Below are positions 213 to 54,077 of a DNA stretch of 64,000 nucleotides, piece by piece (within the stretch, counting starts at the first letter, position 1; every line of letters starts with the position of its first letter). The stretch comes from Acidovorax sp. Leaf160. GTDB taxonomy: Bacteria; Pseudomonadota; Gammaproteobacteria; Burkholderiales; Burkholderiaceae_C. Under the pieces are notes generated by a model. The model did not search any database. It saw nothing but the letters and a program-made list of their open reading frames with translations, and was not told the origin of the DNA. The DNA is taken from assembly GCF_001424265.1 (NCBI RefSeq), contig NZ_LMOV01000026.1:1-64000 (forward strand), given 5' to 3'. Both the position numbers and the translations under genes were made by a program.

Positions 213-261
213 GCTACTAATTTCATAGCTGCCGGCACTGATGAATCAAGCGCCGGCAGCC
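213..261 (+). repeat. Dispersed 49-bp element, copy 1 (fusA-tuf spacer)
   Basis: Canonical layout: a 17-bp first palindrome (213-229, GCTAC-N7-ATAGC), an 18-bp spacer, then AAGCGCCGGCAGCC at 248-261. The spacer and tail form a second hairpin with perfect 9-bp arms (228-236 and 252-260) and a 15-nt loop. The copy fills the middle of the tuf-fusA gap and would be transcribed within the str operon, so it could affect tuf expression or mRNA stability. That effect is inference. Confidence 0.8.
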
Positions 262-321
262 GATTTCTCTCGAAACCCAACCGGAAGGTCTGCCGAGGCA
301 GCCCCTCCGGCCCTCACGCCA

Positions 322-2424
322 TTACTTGGCGCGGGCAGCCATGATGGCTTCAGACACGTTGCGAGGCGCTTCGCTGTAGTGCTTGAACTCCATCGTGTAG
401 GTGGCGCGGCCTTGCGTTGCGGAGCGCAGCGAGGTCGAGTAGCCGAACATTTCGGACAGAGGCACTTCGGCCTTGATGGCCTTGCCGCCGCCGACCATGT
501 CGTCCATGCCCTGCACCATGCCGCGACGCGAGGACAAATCGCCCATCACGGTACCGGCGTAGTCTTCGGGCGTTTCCACTTCCACGGCCATCATCGGCTC
601 CAGGATCACGGGGTTGGCCTTGCGGCACCCTTCCTTGAAACCGAAGATCGCGGCCATCTTGAACGCCAGTTCGTTCGAGTCCACATCGTGGTACGAACCG
701 AAGTGCAGCGTGACCTTGACGTCCACGACCGGATAGCCGGCCAGCACGCCTTGGGTCACGGCTTCGTGGAAGCCCTTTTCCACGGCCGGGATGAATTCGC
801 GAGGAACCACACCGCCCTTGATGGCGTCGACGAACTCGTTGCCCTTGCCGGCTTCGTTCGGCTCGATCTTGAGCACGACGTGACCGTACTGGCCCTTACC
901 GCCCGACTGGCGCACGAACTTGCCTTCGGCTTCTTCCACCGTCTTGCGGATGGTTTCGCGGTAGGCCACCTGGGGCTTGCCCACGTTGGCTTCCACGCCG
1001 AATTCACGCTTCATGCGGTCCACGATGATTTCCAGGTGCAGCTCGCCCATGCCGGCGATCAGCGTCTGGCCCGACTCTTCATCGGTCTTCACGCGGAACG
1101 AAGGATCTTCCGCAGCCAAGCGTTGCAGGGCGATGCCCATCTTTTCCTGGTCGGTCTTCGTCTTGGGTTCCACGGCCTGCGTGATCACGGGCTCGGGGAA
1201 CACCATGCGCTCCAGAATGATCTGGGAGTCGATGTCGCTCAGCGTTTCGCCGGTCGTCACGTCCTTCAGACCCACGCAGGCAGCGATGTCGCCGGCGCGG
1301 ATTTCTTCGACTTCCAGGCGTTCGTTGGCGTGCATCTGCACGATACGGCCGATGCGTTCCTTCTTGCCCTTGATCGGGTTGTAGACGGTGTCGCCCTTGG
1401 ACAGAACGCCCGAGTACACGCGCACGAAGGTCAGCTGGCCCACGAACGGGTCGGTCATCAGCTTGAACGCCAGGGCCGAGAACTTTTCGCTGTCGTCCGC
1501 CTTGCGGGTGACGGGGTTTTCGTCTTCATCGGTACCCGTCACATCATCGATGTCGGTAGGTGCCGGCAGATAGTCGATCACGGCGTCGAGCATGCGCTGC
1601 ACGCCCTTGTTCTTGAACGCGGTGCCGCACAGCATCGGCTGGATTTCCGTCGCAATCGTGCGCGTGCGCAGACCGGTCTTGATCTCTTCCTCGGAGAGGT
1701 CGCCCTCTTCCAGGTACTTGTTCATCAGGTCTTCGGACGCTTCGGCAGCGGCTTCGACCATCTTCTCGCGCCATTCCTTGGCGGACTCGACGAGTTCGGC
1801 CGGGATGTCCTTGTATTCGAACTTCATGCCCTGCGAGGCTTCGTCCCAGATGATGGCCTTCATCTTCAGCAGATCGACCACGCCGGTGAAGTTTTCTTCC
1901 GCGCCGATCGGGATCACCACGGGCACGGGGTTGGCCTTCAGGCGCAGGCGCATCTGGTCATAGACCTTGAAGAAGTTGGCGCCGGTACGGTCCATCTTGT
2001 TCACGAAGGCCAGGCGAGGCACCTTGTACTTGTTGGCCTGGCGCCAGACGGTTTCCGACTGGGGCTGCACGCCACCCACGGCGCAGTACACCATGCAGGC
2101 GCCGTCCAGCACGCGCATGGAACGCTCCACCTCGATGGTGAAGTCCACGTGGCCGGGGGTGTCGATGATGTTGAAGCGGTGCTCGGGGTAGGACATGTCC
2201 ATGCCCTTCCAGAAGCAGGTCGTGGCGGCCGACGTGATCGTGATGCCGCGCTCTTGCTCCTGCTCCATCCAGTCCATGGTGGCAGCGCCGTCGTGCACTT
2301 CACCGATCTTGTGGTTCACACCGGTGTAGAACAGGATGCGTTCGGTCGTCGTGGTCTTGCCAGCGTCGATGTGGGCCGAGATACCGATATTGCGGTAGCG
2401 CTCGATGGGAGTCTTGCGTGCCAT
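322..2424 (-). CDS. fusA: Elongation factor G
   Basis: This 700-residue protein is full length for EF-G, the GTPase that drives ribosomal translocation and, with RRF, ribosome recycling. The P-loop AHIDAGKT is at residues 17-24, followed by the DTPGH motif near residue 90 and NKMD near 143. The EF-G domains II to V follow, including the HVDVDSNE-like domain IV region. It starts at an ATG 91 bp downstream of rpsG and is followed by tuf. No second fusA copy is in the window. Assignment is secure. Confidence 0.98.
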
Positions 2425-53225: not shown

Positions 53226-53315
53226 CCGCGCATTCTCGATGCAACCGCCCGGGCCGCCCGCACGCTTTCCCGATCTGCTTACATTTGGCAGCAATCTGGG
53301 GCGCTTCGGGCCGCC

Positions 53316-54077
53316 TCAACCCTGGAGTTCGGCCAGCCGCTCGGGCGTGCCCACATCGGTCCAGCGGCCGGTGTACAGCGCCCCGGTGACGCGGCCGGCG
53401 TCCATGGCCCGGCGCAGCAGCGGGGCCAGCGGGGCGGCCACGCCCTCAGGGTTGCCGGGCGGCATGTCGCACCAGGGAGCCGCGAACAAGTCGGCACGCA
53501 GCAGGGCGATGGTGCTGTAGGTGTAGCGCGGCCCGGGGTGGTCGGCGGGCAGGTTCAGCACCCGGCCTTCGGGCGACAGGCCGAAATCGCCCCGGAGGTG
53601 GTGCGCCGGATTGGGCACCAGCCAGAGGTGCGCCAGCGCGTCGCCGGCGGCGAAGCGCTCGGCGGCTTGCGGCTCGAACGCGAAATCGGGCACGAACACG
53701 TCGCCCGCGGCCAGCCAGAAGACCGGGCCCAGCTGGGGCAGCGCCCGGGCGATGCCCCCGGCCGTCTCCAGCGCGGCGCCGAAGTCCCGGCCTTCGTTGG
53801 AGTATGAAATCGATAGCACACTATCGAGGCCATCCGGGCGCTGGAGGCTGAAAACACCACCAAAGCGCTCGCTGACCTGGTCGCCCAGCCAGGCGGTATT
53901 GACGACGGCGCGCGGCACGCCCGCCTCGGCCAGCGCGCGCAGGTGCCACTCCAGCAGCGGCCGACCCCGCACGCTCAGCAGGGGTTTGGGCAAGGTGTCG
54001 GTCAGCGGACGCATGCGCTCGCCCCGGCCGGCGGCCAGCAGCATGGCAGGAGGTTGGTAGGTCATCGTGGAAGTCAT
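53316..54077 (-). CDS. Sugar-1-phosphate nucleotidyltransferase, MurU-like
   Basis: The 253-residue protein begins with the NTP-transferase motif MLLAAGRGERMRPLTDTLPKPLL and has LETAGGIARALP, WLAAGDVFVPDF and the C-terminal WTDVGTPERLAEL. This is the pattern of MurU (N-acetylmuramate-1-phosphate uridylyltransferase, peptidoglycan recycling) and related enzymes. Between FGG and YSNEGRDF it has about 16 extra residues (VFSLQRPDGLDSVLSI) supplied by a dispersed 49-bp element, where relatives have a short turn. The AmgK kinase that usually accompanies MurU is not in view. Confidence 0.85.
   Translation of the reverse strand: MTSTMTYQPPAMLLAAGRGERMRPLTDTLPKPLLSVRGRPLLEWHLRALAEAGVPRAVVNTAWLGDQVSERFGGVFSLQRPDGLDSVLSISYSNEGRDFGAALETAGGIARALPQLGPVFWLAAGDVFVPDFAFEPQAAERFAAGDALAHLWLVPNPAHHLRGDFGLSPEGRVLNLPADHPGPRYTYSTIALLRADLFAAPWCDMPPGNPEGVAAPLAPLLRRAMDAGRVTGALYTGRWTDVGTPERLAELQG
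53801..53849 (+). repeat. Dispersed 49-bp element, copy 11 (inside the MurU-like gene)
   Basis: The first palindrome is slightly eroded, AGTAT-GAAATCG-ATAGC (53801-53817). It is followed by an 18-bp spacer and the tail GGGCGCTGGAGGCTG, then AAAACACC, a downstream flank shared with copy 2. It is read antisense by the gene and adds a segment within the nucleotide-binding half of the enzyme without breaking the frame. Confidence 0.78.

Follow-up and report, generated by a model that had tools for sequence, protein, structure and literature searches.

A two-part DNA element with clade-specific tails, kept in place at the orthologous sites compared in Acidovorax and its relatives

The first 64,000 nucleotides of contig NZ_LMOV01000026.1 of Acidovorax sp. 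Leaf160 (the window) contain eleven short palindrome-bearing elements, and the question they raise is whether these form a genuine family and whether they are mobile repeats, structured RNAs or sites read as DNA. A sequence-only reading of the window had described them as 49-bp elements between positions 213 and 53849 and had leaned towards a REP/MITE-like family (repetitive extragenic palindromic sequences; miniature inverted-repeat transposable elements). We propose, at a probability of about one half, that the element is a maintained two-part chromosomal recognition signal, for which self-recognition in DNA exchange, in the manner of a DNA uptake sequence (DUS), is the best-fitting function.

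All eleven intervals hold true copies in the register first proposed, in both orientations and with constant spacing. Each copy was scored by a position-weight model built from 64 Leaf160 copies, with every copy withheld in turn; the leave-one-out scores in the order of the window were 66, 74, 38, 60, 62, 40, 45, 40, 74, 74 and 25. Simulated controls (10 × 644 kb, second-order, both strands) reached a top score of 6.6, with none above 29. The element joins three parts at fixed spacing: the 17-bp palindrome GCTAT-N7-ATAGC, whose centre is an A/T tract; a tail of about 32 bp; and a T-rich/A-rich end. The palindrome had been reported for every copy; it is exact in six of the eleven and imperfect in the other five, with one mismatch in two copies, two mismatches in two and more than two in the copy at 8995. 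The length of 49 bp was an underestimate: conservation spans about 65 bp, from T-rich bases 5' of the palindrome to a TTTTGACTTGAAA-like sequence past GGAGGC, with the 3' end after GGAGGC being nnTTTTGACTTGAAA-like. The information per site is approximately 45-65 bits, less small-sample bias (tail alone 23-43 bits, palindrome about 22-26 bits). An Rfam scan of the 64-kb window gave no match at the gathering score.

The proposal of a homologous family is supported both genome-wide and family-wide in Comamonadaceae-type genomes, by palindrome counts and at named loci. The Leaf160 assembly (4.72 Mb, 29 contigs) contains 274 exact palindromes, compared to none for a reversed-pattern control. Forty-seven copies scored above the cut in 464 kb, all eleven from the window included, and 64 were found in 644 kb with a further 180 kb added; scaled to the whole genome, the latter count gives an estimated total of about 470 elements. 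A covariance-model search of Leaf160, in which 150 of 4,580 candidates were scored, all 150 at 46 bits or more, gives no genome total. Among 200 genomes of the family, at least 30 palindromes were counted in 49, 8-29 in 12 and at most 7 in 139 (controls at most 6), and 24 genomes from other families of the order had 0-10 (controls 0-18).

Copy number also varies sharply within genera. The 17 genomes of the Leaf160 genus, denoted here by numbers with a G as are the other genomes compared, have 78-274 exact palindromes in eleven cases and 10-15 in six. In a four-protein tree the six low-copy species (citrulli, cattleyae and relatives), which have nearly lost the element, group together (support 1.000); their clade adjoins G009 and G011 (0.937), and G010 falls in the same larger group (1.000). 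Because the low-copy clade is nested in the genus, its state reflects loss rather than primitive absence. Genus g96 provides a second within-genus gain or loss, with 206 palindromes in G111 versus 1 in G216. We also scanned 80 named loci, each at most 21 kb, at one score cut, and recovered the element from several loci of Acidovorax, from those of Giesbergeria, Extensimonas and Paenacidovorax, from two of Comamonas and from one of the two of Rhodoferax; no element reached the cut used in the named loci of Variovorax, Limnohabitans, Ramlibacter and Hydrogenophaga. A single locus is weakly informative: no element was seen at those of Paracidovorax valerianellae and P. anthurii, whose genomes contain 255 and 126 palindromes, respectively.

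At the orthologous sites compared, the elements are maintained in place. From the 28 elements of Leaf160 contig C26, 11 could be placed in G003, 10 of them with a match score of at least 18, and 16 in G014, 12 of them with such a match; seven were placed in the low-copy genome G007 and none had a match. The remaining elements lay outside the stretches compared or could not be anchored, some of the matches are weak, and the G014 alignment at 137914 is mostly missing. The window sites at 30543, 32479 and 53801 align to G007 without indels within the element, and the motif at these sites is, judging from the alignments, present or absent through substitution.

Coding genes offer the closest view of this maintenance (the names AroE, Cca, MurC, MurD, MurG, PurK, RsmB and RuvC are our presumptive assignments from the protein sequences). 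A single in-frame site in AroE, free of indels, carries the element in 13 species and lacks it in the six low-copy species; the MurG site, likewise in-frame, is gap-free and is kept even in the low-copy clade. In Cca the palindrome lies over the codons of a conserved TIN(A/S)IA block. Nine of 22 family genomes encode the TINAIA block as ACT AT(C/T) AAT nnn ATA GC, and in seven of these the Ala has become Ser. Under the Leaf160 tail, the Cca loop exceeds by about four codons that of the eight genomes shown from other families, and its length varies within the family too; the Cca site is absent from five high-copy genomes (G002, G004, G005, G006 and G016). The murC element overlaps the gene end, where only five genomes could be aligned, and murC is for this reason not counted as a case of rewriting within a gene. 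The listed codons under the palindrome end in A or T in more than 90% of the species compared at 9 of 14 positions (AroE 3/5, Cca 4/6, MurG 2/3) versus 3 of 751 in the rest of the three genes (1/181, 2/322 and 0/248, respectively), which indicates selection or drive on the DNA itself.

The tails, rather than the palindromes, distinguish the clades. Unsupervised alignment seeded by palindromes only gave the tail consensus ...gCgCTgatg.aaCaAGCGCtgGaGGC for Leaf160, ...gCCCtaGtg.taa.TGCGCtGGAGGC for G002 and AAACTATTCAATGgATCCGGCGGCATGGaGC for G009; seeds were too few for a clear consensus in G003 and G014 (6 and 9), and no tail consensus emerged from palindrome seeds in the stretch of low-copy G007. 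These dialects were typed in three genomes over 400-644 kb each and in 13 species at AroE. Under leave-one-out scoring the tail fitted its own species model best in 59 of 64 Leaf160, 30 of 40 G002 and 30 of 30 G009 copies, while palindromes scored alike under all species models. At 13 orthologous pairs (seven Leaf160-G009, six Leaf160-G002) the arms have 8-10 of 10 letters in common and the tails 10-19 of 32. Every tail of these 13 pairs scored best under the model of its own genome, two G002 pairs by 1-2 bits only; the pairs were located with each genome's own model, which biases towards this outcome and may miss sites with foreign tails. With sites chosen by the palindrome only, the own model was still best for 38 of 44 Leaf160, 22 of 23 G009 and 23 of 31 G002 tails (among the eight other G002 tails, four fit G009, one Leaf160 and three none), and in all eight anchored orthologous pairs each tail was best under its own model.

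The same dialects recur at single genes. At AroE, dialect A is found in Leaf160, G003, G014, G004 and two other genera, dialect B in G002, G005, G006 and G016, and dialect C in G009, G010 and G011; all 13 scored AroE tails were assigned to the model of their own clade, the scores for A and B being close in some of them. The Cca tails of Leaf160, G003, G014, G018, G019 and G020 fit A best and those of G009 and G011 fit C best. The dialects follow the tree.

Palindrome and tail vary nearly independently: mutual information between centre and tail is at or slightly above that of shuffled copies (z 0.6, 2.8 and 1.8), while that within the tail is high (z 6.2, 5.9 and 21.2). Copying of whole elements would link centre, tail and end. 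Among 113 G009 pairs picked for their like tails, the shared fraction is 0.90-0.94 in the arms and 0.85 in the tail, compared to 0.47 in the centre, 0.36 in the end and about 0.30 in the flanks. Tail variation in G009 is concentrated in particular columns, and the whole pattern is that expected when the positions read within a site are fixed. Copies within Leaf160 are at most 76% alike, and none of 2016 pairs exceeds 80%.

Placement was analyzed with gene calls from a simple purpose-made gene finder. In 1.04 Mb from two species, 103 of 104 copies could be placed (one had no left gene); 82 are intergenic and 21 lie within predicted genes, ten on the same strand as the gene and eleven on the opposite one. 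Set against the intergenic regions of at least 50 bp, there are 26 elements for 92 convergent, 48 for 337 co-directional and 8 for 116 divergent regions. The two orientations between co-directional genes number 27 and 21; an apparent orientation bias in 47 copies (14 ++ versus 5 --) was gone with Leaf160 C26 and G002 added. Even spacing was absent in Leaf160, where the coefficients of variation (0.98 and 0.90) are both random-like, and the G002 stretch (L267-L286) is more evenly spaced than random (0.70, P 0.012). Strand counts are 14/14 and 17/19 in the stretches own26 and own1, 17/13 in G009 and 27/13 in the G002 stretch. Low-GC windows hold 4 elements in 10 windows versus 129 in 134 others (permutation P 0.035), a depletion that is suggestive only. 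BLAST searches with two query copies against plasmids and one against phages, a method insensitive for a short and variable query, returned three weak plasmid matches and no phage match.

We considered whether the resident Y1 transposase, of the type termed RAYT (REP-associated tyrosine transposase), spreads the element as a mobile unit of the REP or MITE kind. The palindromic form, the mostly intergenic placement, the hundreds of copies and the discrete tail types all fit this explanation, and of the 36 family genomes searched 34 have a Y1 transposase (once in 33, 20 times in G031). The gene, usually single, also occurs in low- and zero-copy genomes, which are among the 48 of 60 genomes with Y1_Tnp matches. 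The RAYT-like gene of Leaf160 is at L040:4293-5153, with relatives' loci at L041-L059, and the HUH motif and the tyrosine (aligned to GRSYVR of Leaf160) are present in all 20 Y1 loci read, including four from low-copy genomes, which speaks against the transposase as the cause of copy number. In 7 of the 20 loci (G002, G004, G006, G016, G009, G011 and G026) the Y1 start has an element upstream of it at a distance of about 25-220 bp; weak matches occur directly downstream of the gene in G028 and G031 and none near it in Leaf160, G014 or the four low-copy loci; a link between the two is therefore possible. The intragenic sites argue against spread by insertion. AroE, MurG and the window sites at 30543, 32479 and 53801 show no element-sized indels versus element-free orthologues, palindrome and tail are nearly unlinked, and no Leaf160 pair is more than 80% alike, though some G009 and G002 pairs are. 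The foot of the palindrome is mostly ATAGC and sometimes GTAGC rather than a constant GTAG/CGTC tag, and G009 has no supported second hairpin. The REP/MITE proposal of the sequence-only reading is thus not supported at these sites, the element is probably not a REP/MITE, and we regard spread by a Y1 transposase as improbable. As a separate observation, the Y1 transposase family is matched 7-20 times in each of G031, G043, G049 and G054, in contrast to its single occurrence in most genomes of the family. A templated process could instead overwrite the 32-nt tail at palindrome-marked sites, by ectopic gene conversion or through a reverse-transcribed or single-stranded copy. Tails do switch as whole words with their length kept, they are nearly unlinked to the palindrome, and discrete types stand side by side in G002; variation within a tail type is concentrated in certain columns, as under site-by-site constraint, and the intragenic tails of the G002 clade differ mutually at many positions, so that we give this process little credence.

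An intrinsic terminator or another structured RNA downstream of genes would explain the enrichment between convergent genes, and the arms had been said to differ between copies while pairing was kept, as if structure were selected. That claim did not survive comparison with shuffles, over which the Leaf160 and G009 copies show no excess. In 47 copies, 65.7% of the cells of the proposed structure pair compared to 65.0% with the 3' letters dealt anew, the covariation score is 0.121 versus 0.116 shuffled, and copies 1 and 5 pair because they are close to a self-complementary consensus; paired arms in such a consensus are not evidence of RNA structure. In three species the palindrome arms did not covary when right arms were dealt whole among the sequences, and in G009 there was no excess folding (z 0.1), the best of 117 hairpin registers reaching z 3.1 only. 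Some copies do fold well (mean z -1.8 for the first 40 Leaf160 copies, -1.3 for G002), and G002 is an exception in covariation: its 14 CCCTAG-type copies pair at 0.684 versus 0.568 with dealt arms (P 0.0005), and over all 40 copies the top register reaches z 6.9, with mixed tail types contributing. There is no clear orientation preference between co-directional genes, and about one placed copy in five is intragenic, in either orientation. The element is probably not a structured RNA, and a terminator is very improbable. At the centre of the palindrome, opposite positions pair less than expected (P >0.99 in three species), a deficit that, by analogy, resembles that of A/T tracts read by a protein. 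The A/T-tract centre and the symmetric palindrome would also suit a site, kept by ordinary selection at each of its places, for a chromosome-organizing or other abundant DNA-binding protein (a nucleoid protein, SMC loader or topoisomerase) that contacts DNA through one conserved part and one variable part. Fixed spacing within the element, a near balance of the two strands in three of the four stretches and fewer elements between divergent than convergent genes agree with this proposal. Against it, Leaf160 spacing is not even, per-site selection would have to be strong enough to alter conserved residues in Cca, and the information per site is far above the roughly 14 bits that suffice to locate about 500 sites on strands totalling 9.4 Mb. 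We consider such a protein unlikely as the explanation, with a real chance of being right.

The reading we favor, a self-recognition signal, would work as follows. The palindrome would be the site of a symmetric DNA-binding protein, and a putative reader would recognize both the palindrome and the clade-specific tail. Sites would arise and persist in place at the same orthologous loci, mainly by substitution; a change in the specificity of the reader would make sites switch dialect together, and loss of the reader or of its drive would leave them to decay. The excess of information, the near absence from plasmids and phages in the three BLAST searches, the dialects and the decay after loss are together what one would expect of a self-recognition signal with drive. 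We prefer a function in DNA exchange because such a drive would most readily keep more than 40 bits at hundreds of sites, essential genes included; DNA uptake is conjectured by analogy with the DUS and uptake signal sequences of naturally transformable bacteria. A stronger formulation is offered tentatively, as one that could well be wrong: Comamonadaceae may carry a previously undescribed genome-wide self-recognition code, in which hundreds of orthologous loci bear a constant palindromic address together with a 32-bp password specific to the clade, are rewritten in place when that password changes, aroE and cca included, and serve to tell own chromosomal DNA from foreign DNA in exchange.

Several observations weigh against this reading. 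No reader was identified, and ComEC, GspH/FimT and Y1 each fail to separate high- from low-copy genomes; ComEC, present in 17 of 17 genomes of the genus, low-copy ones included, is not discriminating, and the element is thus not tied to the presence of competence genes. A DUS measures 10-12 bp; the motif here has five to six times that length and occurs about once per 10 kb. Intergenic preference suits REP-like elements too, as does the proximity to Y1 in some loci. Insertion may have occurred at some intergenic sites, such as that at 51768 (element 10), which is missing from G014 with an indel. More than 80% identity over 52 columns was found in 44 of 435 G009 pairs and 26 of 780 G002 pairs, and the discrete tail types together in G002 are a possible sign of tail copying. 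The Leaf160 and G002 models overlap (18 versus 15 for AroE of G003), and the Cca tail of G010 matches no dialect. Separately, the ComEC matches at G019:C1:1836740-1837544 fall in three adjoining pieces, which may reflect a frameshift in the genome or its assembly.

Known systems resemble the element in part. The uptake signal sequence of Haemophilus has a core with flanking A/T tracts at helical spacing; it differs in its much shorter core, the lack of a palindromic address and its occurrence in other bacteria. The DUS of Neisseriaceae, as described in PMC3630211, numbers about 1,900-6,000 copies in 2.2-2.4 Mb and has dialects; the likenesses are a dispersal in hundreds to thousands of copies, within genes as well as between them, and clade dialects that follow phylogeny, two of which can share one genome. 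Unlike the DUS, the element is about 65 bp long, has a constant palindrome with a variable tail and is present about once per 10 kb, the likeness in uptake being one of analogy. REP sequences and REPINs with RAYT (PMC3116915) are likewise short, palindromic, mainly intergenic and present in hundreds, with a Y1 gene in the genome; in the element, unlike these, tail dialects change in place, intragenic copies are gap-free without an insertion pattern, Y1 does not track copy number and the hairpin foot has no constant GTAG/CGTC tag. The text of PMC3733652, on REP and RAYT, contained none of six genus and family names sought. The beta-proteobacterial repeat element (BRE) shares with the element its occurrence in Comamonadaceae, its mostly intergenic placement and some copies within coding sequence; according to PMC3110155, it is 75-91 bp long with an average GC of 69% and 1-29 copies per genome in tandem clusters, and by that description BRE is GC-rich, tandem and rarer than the element. 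Among the literature matches listed on repeats, uptake sequences and transformation in Comamonadaceae, Acidovorax and Burkholderiales, none described the element, and the palindromic repeats that a search of PMC2755013 for repeat terms brought up are CRISPR.

If our reading is true, a large environmental and plant-associated family employs a long two-part DNA signal; this signal shapes its essential genes at the sequence level and may limit exchange from one clade to another. Contrasts already present in nature, with 274 versus 10 copies within one genus and three dialects, would offer a direct route to a new sequence-specific DNA reader and to following the concerted evolution of dispersed sites.

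The eleven copies of the window differ in setting. Element 1 (211-274, plus strand; palindrome 213-229, tail 230-261, end 262-274) is intergenic, past the 3' end of the minus-strand gene at 322-2424, and has an orthologous element in G003; element 2 (5773-5836, plus), also intergenic, has a G003 orthologue with a score of 40. Element 3 (8993-9056, plus) lies between an ALAD gene (7901-8971) and a CorA-like gene (9047-10309), both supported by Pfam, and overlaps the predicted start of the latter, with orthologues in G003 and G014. Element 4 (11909-11972, minus) is within the open reading frame at 11042-12592 (plus) and aligns without gaps to weaker orthologues in the same two genomes. Element 5 (18972-19035, minus), which also has orthologues, is flanked by the LptE gene (19184-19678) on one side and by the DNA polymerase III delta gene (17904-18956) on the other. 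Three further copies lie within genes: element 6 (23453-23516, plus) in the predicted gene at 22983-23711 (minus), aligned in G003 with a match score of 18 and in G014 and G007 with none; element 7 (30530-30593, minus) in the predicted gene at 30259-31164 (minus), gap-free against G003 and G014, which have the element, and low-copy G007, which has none; and element 8 (32466-32529, minus) in a gene at 31764-32960 (plus) that we take to be purK-like, gap-free against G003 (no match), G014 (score 24) and G007 (none). Element 9 (42300-42363, minus) is at the 3' end of the PNP_UDP_1 gene at 42355-43077 (minus); neither G014 nor G007 has a match where this site was placed. Element 10 (51755-51818, minus) has as neighbours the aminopeptidase P gene (51831-53225) and the pyruvate kinase gene (50222-51658). 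The weakest copy, element 11 (53799-53862, plus), is within a presumably sugar-nucleotide-transferase-like gene (53316-54077, minus); the matching place in Acidovorax radicis (L078) holds an element with a score of 65, and a few other loci have an element there too.

Some minor observations were made at related loci. Downstream of the PepP gene in L152 (G008) there is a run of roughly 80 G, probably an assembly artefact. Near 7384 of L027 (Leaf160 C1 227384) the palindrome stops about two bases before the start codon of a gene that we assume to be ruvC-like. The perfect palindrome GCTATGACTGTCATAGC (or its complement) recurs at G019:C1:1532606, G020:C1:1627287, G125:C1:60535 and G181:C11:51087, and is possibly a separate conserved site.

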